From a virus: a stretch of DNA of 27,607 nt. Below, piece after piece: positions 9,494-18,286 of the stretch (positions within the stretch are counted from its first letter, which is position 1; each line of letters starts with the position of its first letter). The notes beneath the pieces were generated by a model, which was not told where the DNA came from, ran no database searches, and saw only the letters and a list, made by a program, of their open reading frames with translations. Both the position numbers and the translations under genes were made by a program. The stretch is from positions 1 through 27,607 of the IMG/VR virus record IMGVR_UViG_3300032271_000074, one strand, 5' to 3'.

Positions 9494-10796
9494 GTACTTC
9501 TCTGACTTCACAGACAAGAATGTATTTAAACTCATTAACACGTATGTCGACAAGTACAACTCCTTTCCTACTAAGGAGGCTCTACTCGTAGACCTTCGTA
9601 ATCAAGATAATATCAGCCAAGAGACGTACGATAAGTCTAAGGAGTTAGTCGATGGCTTATCGACAGATGATAAAACGAAGATCGACTGGCTACTCGACCA
9701 GACAGAAAAGTTCTGTCAAGAGAAAGCCGTATACAACGCGATCATGTCCTCGATCCAGATCTTGGATGACAAGACAGGAGCTAAGTCGAAGGGTTCTATT
9801 CCCCAAATTCTCTCAGATTCCTTGGCTGTATCATTTGACACTCACATCGGGCATGACTTCCTTGAAGATGCGGATGGCCGTTTTGAGTTTTACCACTCAA
9901 AGGAAGTCCGCATACCGTTCGACCTCGACTACTTTAATAAGATTACGCAGGGCGGTCTTCCACGAAAGACACTCAACATCGCTCTCGCCGGTACAGGCGT
10001 CGGTAAATCGCTCTTCATGTGTCATTGCGCATCGGCTAACCTCATGGCTGGTCTCAATGTTCTATACATCACTCTAGAGATGTCAGAAGAGAAGATTGCA
10101 GAGCGTATCGACGCTAACTTACTTGACATCGATATCGCACAGCTTAAAGACATGCCTAAGGATATGTACGATCGTAAGGTAGTTAAGCTTCGTGATAAGA
10201 CTAAGGGTAAGCTTATCATCAAGGAATATCCTACAGCGTGTGCCGGCTCTGGTAACTTTAGGCACTTACTCAATGAGCTAAAGATCAAGCGCAACTTTAT
10301 TCCAGATGTTATATATGTCGATTATCTAAATATATGCATGTCGTCACGCTTGAAGGCCGGTGCTAACGTTAACTCATACACATATGTCAAGGCTATCGCC
10401 GAGGAGCTTCGTGGATTAGCAGTTGAGTTTAACGTTCCACTTATATCAGCCACGCAGACCACCAGGTCTGGCTACTCTAACAGTGATGTTGGACTCGAGG
10501 ACACCTCAGAGTCGTTTGGTCTTCCTGCTACCGCAGATCTGATGTTTGCACTCATCTCTACCGATGAGTTGGCAGAGTCAAGTCAGATCATGGTCAAGCA
10601 GCTGAAGAATCGTTATGCTGATCCTAACAGCATAAAGAAGTTTGTGTTAGGAGTTGACAGGAGTAAGATGAGATTATTTGATACAGACGAAGCAGATATT
10701 GACGCGCCTATCATGGATACGACTAAATTCGGCCATGAAGACAATGAGAGATCTAAACCTAAGTTCGATAAATCAAAGTTTGCGGGGTTCAAATGA
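9411..10796 (+). CDS. 41: Replicative DNA helicase, T4 gp41 (DnaB-like)
   Basis: The 461-residue product shows the DnaB-family helicase core: Walker A ALAGTGVGKSLFMCH (GTGVGKS at 194-200), the catalytic-Glu block YITLEMSEEKIAERIDA, Walker B VIYVDYLNICM (about 301-310), and the sensor region SATQTTRSG followed by EDTSESFGLPATADLMF. Length is close to T4 gp41 (475). A helical N-terminal domain (1-140) would carry the hexamer collar and primase contacts. It unwinds the replication fork on the lagging strand together with gp61 primase, encoded at 22283. Its stop overlaps the next small gene by four bases. Confidence 0.96.
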   Translation: MSIEKLIFSNLILNQDYGRKVIPFLKDEYFSDFTDKNVFKLINTYVDKYNSFPTKEALLVDLRNQDNISQETYDKSKELVDGLSTDDKTKIDWLLDQTEKFCQEKAVYNAIMSSIQILDDKTGAKSKGSIPQILSDSLAVSFDTHIGHDFLEDADGRFEFYHSKEVRIPFDLDYFNKITQGGLPRKTLNIALAGTGVGKSLFMCHCASANLMAGLNVLYITLEMSEEKIAERIDANLLDIDIAQLKDMPKDMYDRKVVKLRDKTKGKLIIKEYPTACAGSGNFRHLLNELKIKRNFIPDVIYVDYLNICMSSRLKAGANVNSYTYVKAIAEELRGLAVEFNVPLISATQTTRSGYSNSDVGLEDTSESFGLPATADLMFALISTDELAESSQIMVKQLKNRYADPNSIKKFVLGVDRSKMRLFDTDEADIDAPIMDTTKFGHEDNERSKPKFDKSKFAGFK

Positions 10797-11005
10797 CATC
10801 CTATAAAGTAAAGAAGTTCGATTCGTTGTACGGTGTAGTCGAGAGTGCGACTAACCATATCATCTTTGAGAGCAATGACGAGCACAAAGCTAAGACCATG
10901 TCTCGTAAGCTAAACTTCGGGGCAGCATTTGATGGCTGGACACCTAACTTTTTTACAAAAAAAGCGAATGTGGACCAGATTTTTGCTAGGGTTTCTGATA
11001 AATAA
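10793..11005 (+). CDS. Small conserved protein downstream of gp41
   Basis: This 70-residue protein has an ATG inside the gp41 stop (ATGA), so it is translationally coupled. The sequence is compact: KFDSLYGVVESATNHIIFES, then KAKTMSRKLNFGAAFDGWTP. The RKLN-x-G-x-x-F-x-G-x-TP-x-FF block looks like a conserved family of small phage proteins, but I have no function for it. It is the last gene of the replication block. Confidence 0.65.
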   Translation: MTSYKVKKFDSLYGVVESATNHIIFESNDEHKAKTMSRKLNFGAAFDGWTPNFFTKKANVDQIFARVSDK

Positions 11006-11014
11006 CTCCAAAGA

Positions 11015-11107
11015 ATGGTATGTTTTGCTTGTGCACAGCAAAGAGGCAAGTCGTAAAATCGAGGAAAAGCTGGGAGAAAACGGTGGGGTTCCGCCCGGCC
11101 ATACTAT
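11015..11107 (+). ncRNA. Candidate structured RNA in a 180-bp non-coding gap
   Basis: Hand folding gives a closed, branched shape. P1 pairs ATGGTATG (11015-11022) with CATACTAT (11100-11107), with one G-U pair. P2 is a hairpin TTTGC/GCAAA (11024-11028, 11038-11042). P3 pairs GCTGGG (11069-11074) with CCCGGC (11094-11099), with an inner CGG/CCG (11081-11083, 11091-11093). P3 abuts P1, and P1 is followed by five T. No tRNA features and no convincing gene occupy the stretch 11006-11187. It matches no RNA family I know. It may be a complex terminator, a 3' UTR or a small RNA. Confidence 0.35.
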
Positions 11108-11123
11108 TTTTAGAACATTGAGT

Positions 11124-11155
11124 AAGGGGTGGATCCATAGGGTCCACCCCTTTTT
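11124..11155 (+). terminator. Strong intrinsic terminator at the end of the replication block
   Basis: An 11-bp stem (11126-11136 with 11140-11150; GGGGTGGA against TCCACCCC, one G-U pair) closes a three-base loop and is followed by five T (11151-11155). A late promoter begins four bases later, so this is a sharp boundary between the replication and late units. Confidence 0.92.
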
Positions 11156-11158
11156 CAT

Positions 11159-11166
11159 TATAAATA
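11159..11166 (+). promoter_or_regulatory. T4-type late promoter opening the late block
   Basis: This is an exact TATAAATA octamer, immediately downstream of the terminator and 22 bases upstream of the start codon at 11188. Terminator followed by late promoter is the arrangement expected at an early/late boundary in T4-like phages. Confidence 0.82.
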
Positions 11167-11187
11167 TAGTAAAACATGGAGATTATT

Positions 11188-11958
11188 ATGTCAGAAACCT
11201 CAGACCAATATGAGCGTGATGTCGCTAATCATATTAATGGAACTATAAAGGGTCTTATGGCTGAAAGACCTAAAGTTAGTACATCTTTTCCTGACGTGCG
11301 AATGAAGTATAAGAATTTAAACGAGATATGGTTAGAAGTTAAGATGAACCACACAGACAACATGATGAATCCTAGATTCTCATATGTAGATGGTAAGTGG
11401 ATTACTCCTGAATCATACAAATCTCCTGGCACAGATAAATTATGTGAATATTGGAATGCTAGCCAAGAAGCTAAAACATGGATAGACAATTTAAAAATAC
11501 ATTTATTAAAGAATAATTTTAAAGGTGATGTTAGTAAAATTAGTCTATACTCGTCGAAGACTGAGAGAAAGAAAGACTCTAATAGTATCTATGTTGATGA
11601 GATGAAGGGTTATCTTGAAACTCTTACAAATAAAAATATTTGTAAAGTATCTAATGTTAATGTAGGCGAGCTCGCTACTCTTCATTATCTAAAAGGCAAA
11701 GCTGCAATTGCATATTATCTTAGTTCAGGTGATGACTTTTACCAGTTTGGGACTGATAATCCATTTAGAATACCATATGTACCAGTATTTGCCACATCGG
11801 CCGGAACAAATGATATAGTTCTTCGCGTAGGTGATAGGTCATCTAACTTTGAAATTCAAGCAGAAGTTAAAGCTAGATTTTTACAAAAAAGCACATATAG
11901 CGTAAAGCCTGGTTCAGCTAAGTTAAATCCATTTAGATTTATAGATCCTAAACTTTAA
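11188..11958 (+). CDS. Putative PD-(D/E)XK-type nuclease
   Basis: This is a 256-residue soluble protein. The ATG at 11188 is preferred over 11176 because GGAG (11178-11181) then has proper spacing. Near the N-terminus, SFPDVRMKY followed by EIWLEVKMN gives Asp36-x13-Glu50-Val-Lys52, the core pattern of PD-(D/E)XK nucleases, preceded by a helix with Glu9. The rest is mixed alpha/beta with no other recognised motif. A DNA-cutting role, for instance on host DNA or branched phage DNA, is a hypothesis; the motif alone could arise by chance. It is AT-rich and the first gene under the late promoter, so it may be made late and perhaps packaged. Confidence 0.6.
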   Translation: MSETSDQYERDVANHINGTIKGLMAERPKVSTSFPDVRMKYKNLNEIWLEVKMNHTDNMMNPRFSYVDGKWITPESYKSPGTDKLCEYWNASQEAKTWIDNLKIHLLKNNFKGDVSKISLYSSKTERKKDSNSIYVDEMKGYLETLTNKNICKVSNVNVGELATLHYLKGKAAIAYYLSSGDDFYQFGTDNPFRIPYVPVFATSAGTNDIVLRVGDRSSNFEIQAEVKARFLQKSTYSVKPGSAKLNPFRFIDPKL

Positions 11959-11970
11959 GAAGAACATATA

Positions 11971-14007
11971 ATGATTACATTTAAAACATTCTTAGCAGAA
12001 TCTGCATTAGAGGTTAATAAACTTAAGCACCTCGAGCACGCAGAGGACCACATTATTAATGCTGGCCATGAAGGTGTAGGACACGCTGCAGACACCCTCG
12101 ACGATATTGATAACTTCCTTAAGACAGGTGCTGGTGGATCTACGATCACCACAAAGTATGATGGATCACCGTCGATTGTGTTCGGTGTTAATCCAGAGAA
12201 TGGTAAATTCTTTGTCGGCTCTAAGTCTGTCTTTAACAAAGAGCCAAAGATTAACTATACGGTTCAGGACATTGAGAACAATCACGGTCATGCTCCTGGA
12301 TTAGTAGCAAAGCTTAAATCTGCTCTTCAGAATCTGCCTAAGATCATGCCTAAGAATGAGAAGGGTAAACCTGAAGGAGTCTATCAAGGCGACTTTATGT
12401 ACGACAAGAGTGATCTATCAGGTGATGAGAACTCTAGTGACTATAGCTTTACACCTAATACAATCACATACTCTGTCGCTAAGAGCGGTCCTGAAGGCCG
12501 TAAGATCAATAAGTCCGAGATGGGATTTGTCGTACACACAAAGTATGAGGGTGACAATCTAAATGACATGAAGGCTGGATTTGATGTTGACCAAGATGCT
12601 TTTCAGAAAGATCCTGATGTAAACATAATTAATCCACAGATTGACCAGTCTAAAACACGATATAGCTCTTCTATGCAGAAAGAGTTTGAGAGGCACAAGG
12701 AAGAAGCTGCAAAGGTATATTCAGAGATGGATCCTGCAACTCTCGATAGTCTCGAGAAGCACGACATCACTATGAAGACGTATATTAACTCTACAGTTCG
12801 TGACGACACGATACCTTCTATTGGCGGATACCTGCAGTTCCTTGAGGCCAAGAAGAAGAAAGATATGGATAAAGCTAAGTCTGACAAGGGTAAACAGAAG
12901 ATAGCTGATAGTGCAGATGAAGTCATAAGCCACGCTAATGAGATGAAGGATGAGTTTAAGAAACTCTTTGAGATGCATCGCCATCTACAAAGAGCTAAAG
13001 ATGTTCTCGTTAAGGCAATGGGAAACCCTACACCATATAAGCATACTGTTGGCGGTAAAGAAGTTAAGCCTGAGGGGTTTGTCGCTACTCGTGACGGTAA
13101 GCCAACAAAGCTTGTCGATCGTGCAGAGTTTAGTAAGAATAACTTTGGTAATAATCGTGGTAAAGGTGATCCTGATGCTACATCACCTGAAGAGTCTGAC
13201 ACCAAGAATCCACACGTTATGGCATTTGGTCGCATGAATCCACCTACTGCTGGGCATAAGGTGCTCACTGATAAAGTACTGGAGATGGCAAAGGGAAGAG
13301 GTTCTGGTCATACGGTCGTATTGTCTGGCACGCAAGATCCTGAGAAGAATCCATTGTCTGGTGAGCAGAAGGTCAAGCATGCTAAGAGAATGTTCCCAGG
13401 TGTCAATGTCGAGGCTGCAGGCAAAGACGCTCCTACGGTTATAGAGCAGGCAAAGAAGCTCGCTGCTAAGGGTATCGACCATCTTATCTTTGTTGCTGGA
13501 TCAGACCGTGTTGACGAGTTTAAGAGATTACTTGACTCTTATAACGGTAAAGAGTATAACTTTAAGAGAATTGACGTCGTGTCTGCTGGAACAAGAGATC
13601 CTGATGCAGATGCTGAGGATCCATCGAGTGTGTCAGCAACTCGCCAGAGACAACACGCTATTAACAATAAGTTTAGTGAGTTTAAGAAGGGTATTCCTAA
13701 AGATATGAAAGATGAACATGCTAAAGAATTGTTTAACGATGTTAAGAAAGGCATGGACATTAAGATCGATCAAGACACTAGTGGAATATCTTTGGCTAGA
13801 TACGCTAAGAGAGATGACGTCATCGGTGTAAAGGCTAGAAAAGAGCAGCAGCGCAGGGAGATCATGAAAGAGATGGAAAAGAAAGTCAAGAAGCCAAAAG
13901 GAACGCCTGCTGCGACAAAGCCTGCTGCGCCGGCGCAAAAGACTGCACCCGCACAAAAGCCAATGGCAACTAAGAAACCACCTAAACCAAAGCGTACTAA
14001 AATATAA
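11971..14007 (+). CDS. Ligase-like / nucleotidyltransferase fusion protein, probably virion-associated
   Basis: The 678-residue product has two enzymatic parts. Residues about 55-395 carry motifs of covalent nucleotidyltransferases (RNA/DNA ligase type): TTKYDGSPSIVFG with Lys62, VYQGDFMYD (about 137-145), PEGFVATRDG (367-376) and KLVDRAEFSKNNF with Lys380. Residues about 415-565 form an adenylyl/cytidylyltransferase fold: AFGRMNPPTAGH (418-429) and SATRQRQ (555-561). Such C-terminal halves are often called cytidyltransferase in cyanophages, and the whole resembles DUF6267-type proteins. The N-terminus MITFKTFLAES resembles the T4 capsid-targeting peptide. The last 40 residues are Lys/Pro/Ala-rich. 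Fold assignments rest on motifs only; substrate is unknown. Confidence 0.75.
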   Translation: MITFKTFLAESALEVNKLKHLEHAEDHIINAGHEGVGHAADTLDDIDNFLKTGAGGSTITTKYDGSPSIVFGVNPENGKFFVGSKSVFNKEPKINYTVQDIENNHGHAPGLVAKLKSALQNLPKIMPKNEKGKPEGVYQGDFMYDKSDLSGDENSSDYSFTPNTITYSVAKSGPEGRKINKSEMGFVVHTKYEGDNLNDMKAGFDVDQDAFQKDPDVNIINPQIDQSKTRYSSSMQKEFERHKEEAAKVYSEMDPATLDSLEKHDITMKTYINSTVRDDTIPSIGGYLQFLEAKKKKDMDKAKSDKGKQKIADSADEVISHANEMKDEFKKLFEMHRHLQRAKDVLVKAMGNPTPYKHTVGGKEVKPEGFVATRDGKPTKLVDRAEFSKNNFGNNRGKGDPDATSPEESDTKNPHVMAFGRMNPPTAGHKVLTDKVLEMAKGRGSGHTVVLSGTQDPEKNPLSGEQKVKHAKRMFPGVNVEAAGKDAPTVIEQAKKLAAKGIDHLIFVAGSDRVDEFKRLLDSYNGKEYNFKRIDVVSAGTRDPDADAEDPSSVSATRQRQHAINNKFSEFKKGIPKDMKDEHAKELFNDVKKGMDIKIDQDTSGISLARYAKRDDVIGVKARKEQQRREIMKEMEKKVKKPKGTPAATKPAAPAQKTAPAQKPMATKKPPKPKRTKI

Positions 14008-14010
14008 ATA
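14003..14010 (+). promoter_or_regulatory. T4-type late promoter overlapping the fusion-gene stop codon
   Basis: An exact TATAAATA octamer includes the TAA stop of the upstream gene (14005-14007). It lies 66 bases before the next start codon (14076), in a 68-bp gap with no gene. It probably adds transcription for the genes from 14076 onward. Confidence 0.7.
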
Positions 14011-14075
14011 CAAATGCTGCAGAAAGCTACGGCAATCCTGCGTTGTTGTTTGGTTTAAGCCTAAGGGAAACACCA

Positions 14076-14741
14076 ATGTCGAAAGAAATAAGTCTCCAAT
14101 CTAGTCCTCAGCTAGTTTTCGTAGAGCAACAAGGGGTTGCCGTAGCCCCTTCGCATAAGCAAATAATCTCCCTATACAAGAAGTCAGAGCAGAGTGGCAT
14201 TCCTTTTGACACCATCTTAGAGGTGTACAAGAGAGGCTTTGCCGCGTCTCTAGACGAGCAGTCTGCATTTAATAGGGTTAACTCATTCATAGCCGGTGGA
14301 GCTGCAACAAACATGGATAAAGATCTATTAGAGAAGCGTGGTCTCTGGGATAACATTCACGCTAAGAGAGAAAGAATCAAGCACGGATCTGGTGAGCATA
14401 TGCGCAAGCCAGGGTCAAAGGGAGCTCCATCAAAGCAGGACTTTGTTGATTCTCAGTCTAAAAAAGAAGAGTATACCGGTGCCGAGAAGGTATCACGTAA
14501 TTCGGACGAACCGTCCAGCAGATTTATGGGCACAACTGCCCTAACAGATGTGTACAAAAGCGAAACTCCAGGTTATAGTAAGACCCTATCGACAATCAAG
14601 AGAGTCGTCAAGGAGATGTATGTTAGAGACGCTTCAGGCAAAAAGATTCCTGTTGAAAAGAAAAAGTTCAGAGGCTCTGACATGAAGATGCACTCCGCTT
14701 ATCCAGGTAAGAGTTCAAGCTCGGGTGACGGTGGTGAATGA
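14076..14741 (+). CDS. Conserved phage protein, probably virion-associated
   Basis: This 221-residue protein starts at ATG 14076 behind AGGGA. The N-terminal third is predicted helical (PSHKQIISLYKKSEQSGIPF, GFAASLDEQSAFNRVNSFIA). The centre has the block LWDNIHAKRERIKHGSGEHM with MRKPGSKGAP (about 90-118), a recurrent linear motif in many tailed-phage proteins of unknown function. The C-terminal third is Lys/Ser/Gly-rich and likely disordered. Placement among virion-associated late genes suggests a structural or packaged protein. Its stop overlaps the next start (ATGA). Confidence 0.65.
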   Translation: MSKEISLQSSPQLVFVEQQGVAVAPSHKQIISLYKKSEQSGIPFDTILEVYKRGFAASLDEQSAFNRVNSFIAGGAATNMDKDLLEKRGLWDNIHAKRERIKHGSGEHMRKPGSKGAPSKQDFVDSQSKKEEYTGAEKVSRNSDEPSSRFMGTTALTDVYKSETPGYSKTLSTIKRVVKEMYVRDASGKKIPVEKKKFRGSDMKMHSAYPGKSSSSGDGGE

Positions 14742-15073
14742 AGAGTTTTATAGAGTTCTCAAACTTATTTGAGTGTAACGGTAACTGCACTTGCGGTAAA
14801 CATCTTGAAGAGTTAAACAAGAAGGATCAGAATCCTTCTGGCGGTATGTCTAAGGCTGGTGTTGACAGATACAATAGAGAGAATCCAGGGCATCATCTTA
14901 AGACTGCAGTCACTGCAGAACCTTCTGAGTTAAAGGCTGGTAGTAAGGCTGCAAATCGTCGTAAGTCATTCTGTGCAAGAATGGGTGGAATGAAGAAGAG
15001 ACTAACGGGATCTAAGACTGCTCATGATCCCGATTCACGCATCAATAAGGCACTTAGAAAGTGGCATTGCTGA
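14738..15073 (+). CDS. DUF6321-like basic protein
   Basis: The 111-residue product begins MKSFIEFSNLFECNGNCTCG. The first part resembles a capsid-targeting tail with a cysteine cluster (Cys13, Cys17, Cys19). The rest matches the phage DUF6321 pattern: a GGMSKAGVDRYNRENPGHHL block, RRKSFCARMGGMKKR, and DPDSRINKALRKWHC at the end. It is rich in Lys and Arg and could bind nucleic acid; the cysteines could bind zinc. The family has no known function that I can cite. It is coupled to the previous gene and followed one base later by the HAD gene. Confidence 0.72.
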   Translation: MKSFIEFSNLFECNGNCTCGKHLEELNKKDQNPSGGMSKAGVDRYNRENPGHHLKTAVTAEPSELKAGSKAANRRKSFCARMGGMKKRLTGSKTAHDPDSRINKALRKWHC

Positions 15074-15074
15074 C

Positions 15075-15701
15075 ATGATTAGATTTACACAATTCTTAGA
15101 TGAAGAGAAGAAACCAGCGTTGCATGTATTTGACATAGATGACACGATGTTTCACACTACAGCTAAAGTACGTGTTAGAAATAGTAGTGGTAAGATAGTT
15201 AAGTATCTCAGTAACTCTCAGTTTAATGACTATAAATTAAAACCAGGTGAAAAGTATGACTTTAAAGAGTTTAAGTCTGCAAAAAAGTTTCATGATGAGT
15301 CACATCCTATACACAAGATGATAAGCAAAGTTAAGAGAATACATGGTACAGTGAAGAAGAATCCACACAGCAAAGTAATTATAAATACTGCAAGATCTGA
15401 CTTTGATGATAAAGATAAGTTCTTAAAGACATTTAAGAATCAAGGAATTGATATTGATGACATTCATGTCCATCGCGCCGGTAACATTCAAAAATCTAAT
15501 GAGTCACCGGCAGTAGCAAAGACAAGAATAATTAAAGACTACATACAGAAACATGGATATAAAAAAGTGATGATGTATGACGATAGTAAGACTAACTTAA
15601 GAGCCTTGCTAGCAATGAAGAAGGAACACCCTGGTGTTAAGTTTGTGGCATATCATGCCCAACCAGATGGTTCTATTAAAATATTTAAAGATGGAGATTG
15701 A
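15075..15701 (+). CDS. HAD-superfamily phosphatase (polynucleotide 3'-phosphatase-like)
   Basis: The 208-residue product has the HAD motifs: motif I HVFDIDDTMF (nucleophile Asp20, acid Asp22), motif II IINTARSDF (Thr105), a candidate motif III Lys (Lys149 in AVAKTR) and motif IV VMMYDDSKTNL (Asp169-Asp170). HAD enzymes of this size with DxDDT include the phosphatase half of polynucleotide kinases and HAD_SAK-type RNA-repair domains. The N-terminus MIRFTQFLDEE resembles the capsid-targeting peptide also seen in the ligase-like fusion upstream. The start at 15075 is chosen for this and because it follows the previous stop directly. Its real substrate (nucleic-acid end, nucleotide or other) cannot be read from the sequence. 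Confidence 0.8.
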   Translation: MIRFTQFLDEEKKPALHVFDIDDTMFHTTAKVRVRNSSGKIVKYLSNSQFNDYKLKPGEKYDFKEFKSAKKFHDESHPIHKMISKVKRIHGTVKKNPHSKVIINTARSDFDDKDKFLKTFKNQGIDIDDIHVHRAGNIQKSNESPAVAKTRIIKDYIQKHGYKKVMMYDDSKTNLRALLAMKKEHPGVKFVAYHAQPDGSIKIFKDGD

Positions 15702-15702
15702 A

Positions 15703-15954
15703 ATGAACGAGAACATTGAATTACTGTTAGTTATAGCATTTATAATACTAATTGGATGGGGTCTTACCAAACTAATGAGTGCTAAAGAGATAGTTAAGTC
15801 AGAGCCAGAGCAACCAAAGGAACCTGAAGTTGCACCTGCATCTGAAGTTGTTGAAGAGCCTGTTAAGCCTAAAAGAGGCAGAAAGAAAGCTATACCAGCT
15901 TCTCCTGCTCCTGTTAAGCCTAAGAGAGTTACGAAGAAGAAGGTAACAAAGTAA
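15703..15954 (+). CDS. Membrane-anchored Lys/Pro-rich protein with AT-hook-like motif
   Basis: This 83-residue protein has GGAG (15693-15696) before ATG 15703. One N-terminal membrane helix (IELLLVIAFIILIGWGLTKL) is followed by an acidic proline-rich linker (EPEQPKEPEVAPASEVVEEP). The basic tail contains KPKRGRKKAIP, close to the AT-hook core P-x-R-G-R-P, and then KPKRVTKKKVTK. Such a layout could tether DNA to a membrane, but an ordinary signal-anchor protein with a disordered tail is equally possible. Its stop overlaps the Dps-like start (TAATG). Confidence 0.65.
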   Translation: MNENIELLLVIAFIILIGWGLTKLMSAKEIVKSEPEQPKEPEVAPASEVVEEPVKPKRGRKKAIPASPAPVKPKRVTKKKVTK

Positions 15955-16394
15955 TGGATGAACTGATTGAACAGATGAAAGTTTGCTTGGCCAGCGTTTT
16001 CGCGCTGTACCTAAAGACACACTATTTCCATTGGAATGTGGAGGGTCCAAACTTTTATAGCAATCATAAGTTCCTTCAAAAGATGTATGAAGATCTCTTT
16101 GAGTCTGTTGATAGGCATGCCGAAGAGATTAGAACATCAAATGGATATGCTCCTGGATCTTTTATTAGATTCAGTGAGCTATCTATCGTTAAGGATGAGA
16201 CTAATATCCCGCCTCCTCTGTCGATGATGACAAAGTTGATGGACGACAACCTTAATGTTATTAAGTTATTAAAAGATACAAAAGATCTTGCAGAGAAGCA
16301 AAACTCTGTAGGCTATTCTAACTTTCTACAAGATAGAATAGATGTACACTATAAGCATCATTGGATGCTAAGATCCATAACAAAGGTTGTCTAA
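15954..16394 (+). CDS. Dps-like ferritin
   Basis: The 146-residue product matches the Dps family. KTHYFHWNVEGPNFYSNH provides the conserved HWN-x-x-G-x-x-F-x-x-x-H pattern, and ESVDRHAEEIR the second half of the ferroxidase site. Aligned by eye with E. coli Dps, His26, His38, Asp53 and Glu57 match His51, His63, Asp78 and Glu82, but the Asp67 position is Gln42. Dps dodecamers store iron, detoxify peroxide and often bind DNA. Dps-like genes occur in other T4-like phages. The short N-terminus lacks the Lys-rich DNA-binding tail of E. coli Dps. It may protect DNA in the infected cell or in the virion. Confidence 0.85.
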   Translation: MDELIEQMKVCLASVFALYLKTHYFHWNVEGPNFYSNHKFLQKMYEDLFESVDRHAEEIRTSNGYAPGSFIRFSELSIVKDETNIPPPLSMMTKLMDDNLNVIKLLKDTKDLAEKQNSVGYSNFLQDRIDVHYKHHWMLRSITKVV

Positions 16395-17263: not shown

Positions 17264-18286
17264 ATGCTAAAATCAAATCGAAACTTAGGTCTATCGGAAG
17301 CTATGATTGCGGCTGCTAGAGAGATCCTCGAGAAGAAACTAACCCCTGCACAAGAGAAGAATATTGATAAGAACCATAATGGTAAGATCGATAAGGGAGA
17401 CTTTGAAATTCTTCATAAAAAGAAGAAGATGATGGAAGCTAAGTGCCCATCATGTGGTAAGTCACCTTGCATGTGTGAGAGTGTAAAGAAAGAAGAAGTT
17501 AAACTTGATGAGGCTAGACTATCTTATGTGGTAGATGACGGACGCTCGCCGGTCCAGCACGATCAACAGATGGATGCTGGTAAGATCATCCATAAGAAGA
17601 CAGGCCGTAAAGTCTACTTCGATGGATCTGACATGGTTGACCATAAGACCAATAAGACAATTACAAGAAATGCGCTTGGTAAGCATCCTATACATGCTCT
17701 AGTAAAGCACGCTTCTGAGTTTAATGAAGAGTACGAGCTCGACGAAGGTATGGTGGATAATGGACGGCCAATCCGTGAACCAGATCGGGAAACCGCAAGG
17801 CACATCAGCAAGAAGTCTGGTGTTCCGGTCCATTTCGCTCCAGCACTACATCAGCATCAAAACAAAAATGGTGACGCTTTCCACATGCTTCACAACAAAA
17901 CCGGAGAGATTATTGCTCACCACGCCGGTGATAAAACCATCGGCCAGCTGATAAAGCACGCTTCAAATCATGCTAGTAGTGGCGTTAAGGAAGAGTACGA
18001 GCTCGATGAAGCTAATGTGGTAGATGACGGACGCTCGCCGGTCCAATACGATCAACAAATACATGCCGGTAAGATCATCCATAAGAAAACCGGGCGTAAA
18101 GTCTACTTTGATGGGTCTGACATGGTTGATCACAAGACCAGTAAGACAATCACGCATGGAGCTCTTGGTAAGCATCCTATACATACTCTAGTTAAGCACG
18201 CTGCTGAGTTCAAAGAAGAAGTCGAGTTCTCTGATGCTGAGTTAGAGATGATTGCATCAATTGCACAACAGCATGAAGTAGAATAA
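17264..18286 (+). CDS. Tandem-repeat protein with EF-hand loop and zinc knuckle
   Basis: The 340-residue product is modular. Residues 35-46 form a canonical EF-hand loop (DKNHNGKIDKGD). Residues 61-71 have four cysteines (CPSCGKSPCMC), a probable zinc knuckle. Then come three related units of about 75-90 residues. Units 1 and 3 share VVDDGRSPVQ, AGKIIHKKTGRKVYFDGSDM and LGKHPIH; unit 2 is diverged but keeps the D-N/D-GR start, HISKKSGVPVHF, LHNKTGEII and LIKHAS. Each unit is preceded by LDE|A or LDE|G (after Glu83, Glu161 and Glu249), which fits the T4 prohead-protease consensus. The C-terminus (FSDAELEMIASIAQQ) is helical. The family is unknown; a packaged polyprotein is my inference. Confidence 0.7.
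   Translation: MLKSNRNLGLSEAMIAAAREILEKKLTPAQEKNIDKNHNGKIDKGDFEILHKKKKMMEAKCPSCGKSPCMCESVKKEEVKLDEARLSYVVDDGRSPVQHDQQMDAGKIIHKKTGRKVYFDGSDMVDHKTNKTITRNALGKHPIHALVKHASEFNEEYELDEGMVDNGRPIREPDRETARHISKKSGVPVHFAPALHQHQNKNGDAFHMLHNKTGEIIAHHAGDKTIGQLIKHASNHASSGVKEEYELDEANVVDDGRSPVQYDQQIHAGKIIHKKTGRKVYFDGSDMVDHKTSKTITHGALGKHPIHTLVKHAAEFKEEVEFSDAELEMIASIAQQHEVE
17528..17722 (+). repeat. Direct repeat, copy 1 (repeat unit 1)
   Basis: This 195-bp unit matches copy 2 at 18017-18211 at about 86% identity by hand count, with the first 29 bases identical. Differences are mainly at third codon positions except in one short segment, so the duplication is old enough to be under protein selection. Confidence 0.9.
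18017..18211 (+). repeat. Direct repeat, copy 2 (repeat unit 3)
   Basis: Partner of 17528-17722 in the same frame. The intervening unit at about 17747-18010 is related at protein level only, so units 1 and 3 share a more recent duplication or have been homogenised by recombination. Confidence 0.9.

Follow-up and report, generated by a model that had tools for sequence, protein, structure and literature searches.

A capsid-targeting-like N-terminus on a DUF6267-nucleotidyltransferase fusion of a T4-like phage suggests a packaged and injected enzyme

In this study, we show that a 678-amino acid (aa) protein of a T4-like phage begins with ten residues resembling the capsid-targeting sequence (CTS) of the T4 internal proteins, and that in related phages the presence of this signal agrees with virion proteomics; the signal and this agreement are our main new result. 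The protein joins a DUF6267 domain to a nucleotidyltransferase domain of the HIGH superfamily and is encoded on the IMG/VR virus record IMGVR_UViG_3300032271_000074, whose total of 27,607 bases was analysed (the window). This sequence comes from a T4-like phage, of which it is a fragment, and encodes DNA polymerase, UvsX, a DnaB-like helicase, primase, thymidylate synthase and NrdA. We consider, with a probability of about 0.6 that leaves end repair out of account, that the fusion is a packaged, injected nucleotidyl-transfer enzyme. That it is packaged in the capsid is very probable in itself, and that nucleic-acid ends are its substrate is a tentative proposal that falls somewhat short of an even chance. 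The features on which the argument draws, including those of a HAD phosphatase with a similar N-terminus, are as follows.

11971..14007, plus strand: DUF6267 and HIGH-type nucleotidyltransferase fusion, 678 aa (open reading frame (ORF), Pfam, AlphaFold2 (AF2) model)
11971..12000, plus strand: CTS-like N-terminus MITFKTFLAE of the fusion, predicted cut after E10 (E10 conservation, exact pattern, predicted local distance difference test (pLDDT) below 50 at residues 1-13)
12025..13152, plus strand: DUF6267 domain, residues 19-394, with ligase-like motifs (Pfam, E 6.4e-95)
12154..12165, plus strand: motif I, K62-Y-D64-G65, with the candidate nucleotidylated lysine (K, D and G in 51/51)
13072..13110, plus strand: motifs IV (E368-G369) and V (K380) (51/51 each)
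13204..13761, plus strand: HIGH-superfamily nucleotidyltransferase domain, residues 412-597, CoaD/NMNAT-like (VIA-align, conserved residues)
13903..14004, plus strand: lysine/proline-rich disordered C-terminal tail, residues 645-678 (sequence; pLDDT below 50)
15075..15701, plus strand: HAD phosphatase, polynucleotide-3'-phosphatase-like (model pLDDT 89; VIA-align Z 13.1 to T4 Pnkp phosphatase)
15075..15104, plus strand: CTS-like N-terminus MIRFTQFLDE of the HAD protein (homologue starts, exact pattern)

Both N-termini match the T4 CTS position by position, having the targeting residues 4 and 7 as well as the cleavage residues 8 and 10. T4 ipII and ipIII both begin MKTYQEFIAE, and one record of T4 gives IPIII a leader of ten residues. 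Mutagenesis of the T4 CTS has assigned the control of targeting to residues 4 and 7 and that of processing to residues 8 and 10, Asp at residue 10 leaving targeting intact and inhibiting processing (PMC9026906). The T4 internal proteins have been described as diverse defence proteins of which the CTS is the sole common feature (PMC3012670), and as poorly conserved (PMC9026906). E10 is invariant in 45/45 DUF6267 sequences and at least 90% conserved among 32 HAD sequences. Moreover, when the whole profiles of the two families were compared, residues 1-30 alone aligned (E 0.0017, probability 15%). The HAD start is likely to be 15075 rather than 15024 because its homologues begin there. Four alignments were made. 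A1, of 45 rows, comprises the window and 44 of the 47 fused or DUF6267 locus sequences that were left after de-duplication (L031, L025 and L014, incomplete or split, were omitted). A2 takes in 34 of the 39 rows that are standalone nucleotidyltransferases or cut at the 5' end. A3 comprises the window and 31 of the 33 HAD rows left after de-duplication (one window-identical row and one 607-aa fusion were omitted), and A4 combines four phage proteins with 39 of the rows of A1.

The signal is rare elsewhere. Allowing any ATG within the first 45 codons of an ORF, its exact form, M..[FY]..[FY][LI].E, occurs in 2 of 233 ORFs of T4 1-150 kb (ipII and ipIII only), in 1 of 200 ORFs of the 164-kb relative G001 (the DUF6267 fusion), in 3 of 221 ORFs of another relative, G002 (the fusion, its upstream neighbour and a pol-beta-type nucleotidyltransferase), in 2 of 198 in the cyanophage S-CREM2 and in 2 of 39 in the window (the fusion and the HAD protein), as against 1/3,427 for internal ATGs taken as a control. 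The 228,827-bp genome of S-SCSM1 has it at one annotated gene start, that of the nucleotidyltransferase, and once within a gene. In 158 IMG/VR loci, 217 of the 1,660 ORFs began with a looser form (internal ATG control, 5/1,814), and these 217 ORFs fell into 11 BLAST clusters by the sequence after residue 14, three of them single sequences. The loci had been fetched for DUF6267 and HAD, some overlapping between the two sets, and the clusters of these proteins make up 91 and 72 of the 217. Start codons in the IMG/VR loci were picked nearest the query start, so that this choice leans towards the signal; the annotated-start results and the whole-genome counts are independent of it. The gp21-type prohead protease (PF03420), looked for in the records of relatives and not in the 27.6-kb window fragment, was present in 5/5 records longer than 150 kb and in 0/2 shorter ones.

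Homologues in cyanophages allow the signal to be compared with virion contents. The cytidylyltransferase T4-GC190 was detected by mass spectrometry (MS) in virions of S-SM1 and is among the proteins reported as not detected in those of S-PM2 (PMC3037559). The nucleotidyltransferase was also detected in virions of S-SCSM1, where it is called 'NMNAT' (PMC9602691), and in those of S-CREM2, as ORF154 (PMC10665884). All the detected nucleotidyltransferases carry the signal (S-SM1 MKKFSAFLNE, S-SCSM1 MKSFLQFLKE, S-CREM2 MKNFSSFLTE). The DUF6267-nucleotidyltransferase fusion of S-PM2 (LN828717) begins MATQNKHLEHLED and lacks it, and so do the DUF6267 proteins of S-CREM2 (gp87) and S-SCSM1 (gp257), which are absent from the virion list or tags. 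Signal and virion presence agree in all six cases with a visible outcome, three with the signal and three without. At annotated starts in S-CREM2, a slightly looser pattern was found in 3/52 virion proteins and 0/167 others (one-sided Fisher p 0.013), the three being a SAM hydrolase, an APH-like kinase and the cytidylyltransferase, and a still looser one in 5/52 and 4/167 (p 0.037). In S-SCSM1, 7 of the 10 genes 89-98, which lie in the same gp41-to-primase interval, encode tagged virion proteins. Enzymes in cyanophage virions have been reported with their status as contaminants left open (PMC9602691, PMC10665884). A sequence rule of this kind could explain and predict which non-structural enzymes are packed and injected by marine and freshwater T4-like phages. 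In the literature searched, 'capsid targeting sequence' together with 'cyanophage' returned one history of T4, in which cyanophage occurs only in a reference title, and the link seems not to have been stated there.

Further starts of this type were seen in the same genomes. The S-CREM2 SAM hydrolase (L084, 3837-5081, minus strand) begins MKDFDSFLEE and the APH-like kinase (10579-12846, minus strand) MKRFDAFLTE, both being MS-detected in virions. The Cas9-like virion protein gp12 of S-CREM2 reads RFASFMAEAA from residue 18, with no ATG, GTG or TTG start just before it. The pol-beta-type nucleotidyltransferase of G002 (L264:5568-6290; G002 165568-166293) begins MQSFTEYLTE, matches Pfam NTP_transf_2 at or below the cut-off, and is 46% identical to S-CREM2 gp156, which is in the virion list by MS (PMC10665884) despite having no exact signal. 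In S-CREM1, the exact signal opens two small hypothetical proteins encoded next to the terminase genes (L285, 37282-37611 and 38886-39161), which begin MKSYKQFLSE and MKTYNDFITE.

With regard to chemistry, residues 19-394 of the fusion belong to Pfam family DUF6267 (PF19782). A preliminary description of the window, made from the letters alone, had noted covalent-nucleotidyltransferase motifs in this part and an adenylyl/cytidylyltransferase fold further on, and the motifs are all in place: K62 in TKYDGSP, PEGFV at 367-371, K380 in TKLVD, AFGRMNPPTAGH (418-429) and SATRQRQ. Conservation of Lys62, Glu368 and Lys380, which that description had named beforehand as its refutation test, was found in 51/51 aligned homologues, in which D64, G65, K85, D141, K343 and G369 are likewise invariant (the set includes S-PM2, P-RSM6, HTVC008M, DLP6, S-SM1 and S-CREM2). 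Motif I KxDG, motif IV EG and the motif V Lys are thus present in order and conserved. In the AF2 model of the fusion (mean pLDDT 87.5, predicted template modelling score 0.60), K62 is the last residue of strand 58-62, strand 68-73 comes next, and strands 369-374 and 377-381 are bordered by E368-K380, a layout which we take to be that expected for ligase motifs I, IV and V. Modelled pLDDT falls below 50 at residues 1-13, 397-409 and 645-678, as expected if these are a leader, a linker and a basic tail. The ordered pattern is weaker evidence by itself, being found in 9/244 phage proteins of at least 250 aa (3 DUF6267 members, T4 DNA ligase, T4 Rnl1 and 4 others), and the RNA_lig_T4_1 profile matched 1/45 DUF6267 members (E 0.015). 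On the strength of the motifs, we think it probable that DUF6267 has chemistry of the ligase type, which would suggest a biochemical class for a family whose name was not found in use in the literature searched. The fusion was matched by 533 phage records, in 332 of which a single place covers at least 80% of it.

The second domain can be placed more closely. Pfam matches CTP_transf_like at 418-557 (E 2.2e-4, 21.9 bits against a cut-off of 21), and VIA-align matches residues 412-597 to phosphopantetheine adenylyltransferase (PPAT) at Z 14.7 (2.7 A, 148 aligned) and to nicotinamide mononucleotide adenylyltransferase (NMNAT) at Z 13.4, bearing out the fold proposed earlier. R421, H429, K459 and S555 are conserved in 43/43 sequences, T426 in 39/43 and R560 in 42/43. 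The domain has a Rossmann-type fold with (H/T)xGH and SxTxxR, the motifs of the HIGH superfamily, and its TxGH is presumably CoaD-like. It may use NMN, as the earlier suggestion of a NAD-linked role would have it, or another phosphate substrate; CoaD is the top match, above NMNAT. The labels NadM and NadR were dropped because Pfam found neither a Nudix nor a kinase domain in the fusion. Matches in BFVD, where named, are mostly other uncharacterised or 'cytidyltransferase' phage proteins.

The HAD protein contains FDIDDT, INTARSDF and MMYDDSKTNL as previously noted, and D20/D22/T24, T105, K149 and D169/D170 are conserved in 32/32 homologues, giving DxDxT, the motif II T, the motif III K and the motif IV DD. 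The top VIA-align rows are the T4 Pnkp 3'-phosphatase, followed by Pnkp1 of the Pnkp1/Rnl/Hen1 RNA-repair complex at Z 12.2; other HADs start at Z 11.3, a gap from the Z 12.2 rows that amounts to a tie. Foldseek places AphA acid phosphatases first and T4 Pnkp fifth. By its best structural matches, the protein is polynucleotide 3'-phosphatase-like, with that putative activity, which agrees with the fold assigned to it earlier. The 'Swiss army knife' RNA repair profile HAD_SAK_2 was matched by 1/32 members alone and was set aside. The HAD gene had been placed two genes after the fusion; it is the third gene downstream, 14076-14741 and 14738-15073 intervening.

A nucleotidyltransferase is encoded within the DUF6267 locus in 74/79 loci; DUF6267 occurs in 31/80 HAD loci, and HAD was found in 5/7 records of relatives. 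The fusion of G001 is 91% identical to that of the window, and the gene immediately upstream of it is unrelated to the window counterpart. The patchy occurrence of the HAD and upstream genes has the look of variable cargo, by analogy with the poor conservation of the T4 internal proteins. DUF6267 was also found on 15 genome contigs, most of them contigs of metagenome-assembled genomes that may be phage. One locus (L274) comes from the genome of an isolate, Nonlabens xiamenensis 1Q3, and lies on a contig of 188 kb. The S-PM2 stretch for DUF6267 and the nucleotidyltransferase is two genes in the older record NC_006820 and one 591-aa ORF in the later LN828717.

In the mechanism that we propose, the fusion and the HAD protein would be cargo, internal proteins of a T4-like phage. 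A CTS formed by the first ten residues of each would draw them into the prohead core, a gp21-type prohead protease would cut after Glu10, and the freed enzymes would be ejected into the host along with the DNA. In the host, DUF6267 may work as a covalent nucleotidyltransferase of the ligase or capping type, Lys62 carrying the nucleotide. The HIGH-type adenylyl/cytidylyltransferase to which it is fused would make a cofactor or substrate, and the HAD protein, when present, would be an optional partner trimming terminal phosphates. Most likely they would act on nucleic-acid ends, or on nucleotide cofactors, repairing or altering them prior to any phage gene expression. We infer targeting, cleavage and ejection from T4 and from the agreement of signal and virion presence in relatives, and the ligase-type chemistry, the substrates and a purpose in end repair are likewise inferred. 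The fullest form of this proposal seems unlikely to us: an injected end-healing and sealing kit in which DUF6267 is a new covalent-nucleotidyltransferase family, the adenylyltransferase recycles a cofactor (e.g., NMN to NAD+) and an optional packaged 3'-phosphatase assists, the whole mending defence-cut RNA or DNA before phage genes are expressed. The repair enzymes of T4, by comparison, are made only after infection. Surveys of jumbo phages and of NAD metabolism describe phage counter-defence by RNA ligases together with HAD phosphatases and by salvage of NAD (PMC7824862, PMC9503650), which fits the proposed mechanism and does not test it. The preliminary description was sound in what it observed and is partly supported in its interpretation. 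It had overlooked the N-terminal capsid-targeting signals, which strengthen the early action that it proposed to delivery with the DNA.

Several observations weigh against packaging, injection or ligase-type chemistry. Direct virion data concern homologues only, this phage being known from a 27.6-kb sequence fragment, and the authors of two of the virion studies allow that proteins may be carried over through CsCl purification (PMC9602691, PMC10665884). The proteomic absence from S-PM2 may possibly reflect lower sensitivity. The S-CREM1 nucleotidyltransferase begins with the exact signal (MKRYTNFLSE), and the available portion of the text on that phage's 14 virion proteins, a shallow proteome, does not name it, a possible counter-case (PMC9964418). 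In S-CREM2 the signal is missing from most of the 52 virion proteins and is therefore not necessary for virion presence, although the counts of 3/52 and 0/167 indicate that it marks packaged enzymes. The exact spacing is kept in 24/45 DUF6267 and 24/32 HAD sequences and a relaxed form in 32/45 and 27/32; by another pattern, with 5'-cut rows excluded, the signal is present in 54/77 DUF6267 and 17/60 standalone nucleotidyltransferase rows. DUF6267 has no signal in 5/5 cyanophages checked (S-PM2, P-RSM6, S-SM1, S-CREM2 and S-SCSM1), nor has it in S-CREM1, so that injection is not required of the family as a whole. The HAD gene is loosely linked, lying within the 6-kb flanks of DUF6267 in 17/79 loci, and it was not found in the 164-kb close relative G001, where DUF6321 is followed by the next gene without it; the earlier view of the proteins as one pathway is accordingly a conjecture. 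The DUF6267 profile showed no significant similarity to PDB chains or to T4 Rnl1 and Rnl2, and the second lysine of motif V is absent, position 382 being V in 47/51 homologues and K in none. In covalent nucleotidyltransferases motif V is KxK, and some members of the superfamily also lack the second lysine.

The PDB search with the DUF6267 profile gave solely unrelated helical or chance matches, and hhalign aligned motifs IV-V alone with T4 Rnl1 (E 0.07, probability 0.8%) and nothing meaningful with Rnl2; for these reasons DUF6267 was not filed as an RNA ligase, and of the ligase-like domain described earlier the ordered, invariant motifs stand without a significant profile match to a ligase. 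The structural search with the full-length fusion is uninformative on this point because residues 412-597 filled all the listed rows. We also considered that exactly one partner of each DUF6267/nucleotidyltransferase pair might carry the signal; this failed, some loci having it, at least loosely, on both.

The evidence can be read in other ways. The genes sit between replication genes, in a helicase-primase-nrdA region, and might encode ordinary intracellular auxiliary enzymes whose N-terminal likeness is a general amphipathic start and whose detection in virions is contamination; the unsigned cyanophage DUF6267, the S-CREM1 nucleotidyltransferase that carries the signal without being named a virion protein in the available text, and the carry-over conceded by the authors (PMC9602691, PMC10665884) would all follow. 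We find this quite unlikely, since the signal is rare elsewhere (0/167 non-virion S-CREM2 proteins, 1/3,427 internal ATGs), recurs on unrelated proteins and, in the six visible cases, tracks presence in the virion. If packaging is accepted, the proteins might be structural or DNA-condensing internal proteins whose catalytic folds merely bind DNA in the head. The basic disordered tail of the fusion and the adjoining DUF6321 protein fit such packing, and in T4 internal proteins lysine residues make contact with the phosphates of DNA (PMC3012670). In each of the three domains the putative catalytic residues show no variation or hardly any, a degree of conservation that DNA binding would not require; binding alone is thus an insufficient reading, and a very unlikely one.

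It is also conceivable that the injected cargo supports NAD+ or another dinucleotide cofactor, the HIGH-type domain being an NMN adenylyltransferase that refills NAD+ depleted by host defences. DUF6267 would then be an accessory, or would take NAD+ as nucleotide donor, the released NMN being recycled by the fused domain. Cyanophage papers name the homologue NMNAT and propose control of NAD on entry (PMC9602691, PMC10665884), and phages with NAD+ salvage enzymes are known (PMC9503650). The fold does match NMNAT/NadD, and a fusion of ligase-like and NMNAT-like domains would suit NMN recycling. Nevertheless, we regard this explanation as doubtful: the match to CoaD (PPAT) is slightly better, neither a Nudix nor a kinase domain accompanies it, unlike in NadM or NadR, the use of NMN is drawn from the fold, and the phosphatase is left unexplained. 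Its TxGH motif, too, is CoaD-like. A packaged and injected nucleotidyl-transfer enzyme is the reading that we prefer.

Two genes lie between the fusion and the HAD gene.

14076..14741, plus strand: neighbour gene, no function given (the same-place gene of G002 has a DUF6321 domain)
14738..15073, plus strand: DUF6321 protein with a CTS-like start, MKSFIEFSNLFE, in which F4 and F7 are present and Glu is at 12 rather than 10 (Pfam, E 1.3e-18)

A homologue of the DUF6321 protein in locus L005 begins MMGFKEFISE. The window protein has C-terminal cysteines (SFCARM, KWHC) and aligns with the C-terminal part of several PHROG families. The same cluster includes a Dps/ferritin-like protein (15954-16394; Pfam E 1e-21), the start of which shows no visible signal. 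The product of 17264-18286 gave weak EF-hand/dockerin-like matches near its N-terminus, and the G001 gene in the same position has a similar start, reading KNIDKNHNGKID. The slot directly upstream of the fusion (11176-11958) holds different genes in relatives, a 356-aa protein without similarity to the window gene in G001 and a 422-aa protein with the signal in G002, and may be a variable cargo slot. PADLOC assigned no family to any of the 4 proteins scanned.

Among known systems, the closest likeness is to the T4 internal proteins IPI, IPII, IPIII and Alt. They share with the window proteins a CTS of ten residues on otherwise unrelated proteins, with an aromatic residue at 4, F7, L/I8 and E10 as in IPII/IPIII, and the T4-type prohead protease of the long relatives and the MS-detected packaged homologues extend the likeness. 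The cargo differs, being a small inhibitor or an ADP-ribosyltransferase in T4 and a 678-aa fusion with a HAD phosphatase in the window. The cyanophage T4-GC190 ('NMNAT') of S-SM1, S-SCSM1 and S-CREM2 has a homologous nucleotidyltransferase domain and the same N-terminal signal, and in S-SM1 and S-SCSM1 it has the same place, between gp41 and primase/nrdA. However, in these cyanophages DUF6267 is a separate gene without a signal, whereas in the window both form one chain with a signal. Like T4 RNA ligase 1 and other covalent nucleotidyltransferases, DUF6267 has KxDG, then EG, then K, and its PEGFVATRDGKPTKL resembles IEGYVAVMKDGSHFKI of Rnl1; it differs in showing no significant profile similarity, in lacking the second lysine of motif V and in having helices between residues 233 and 350. 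The HAD protein has the T4 Pnkp phosphatase domain as its best VIA-align match (Z 13.1, 2.9 A over 134 residues) and differs from it in having no kinase domain, a CTS-like N-terminus and 13% identity. Residues 412-597 have a fold like those of CoaD (PPAT) and the NMN/NaMN adenylyltransferases, with 10-18% identity in the listed rows.

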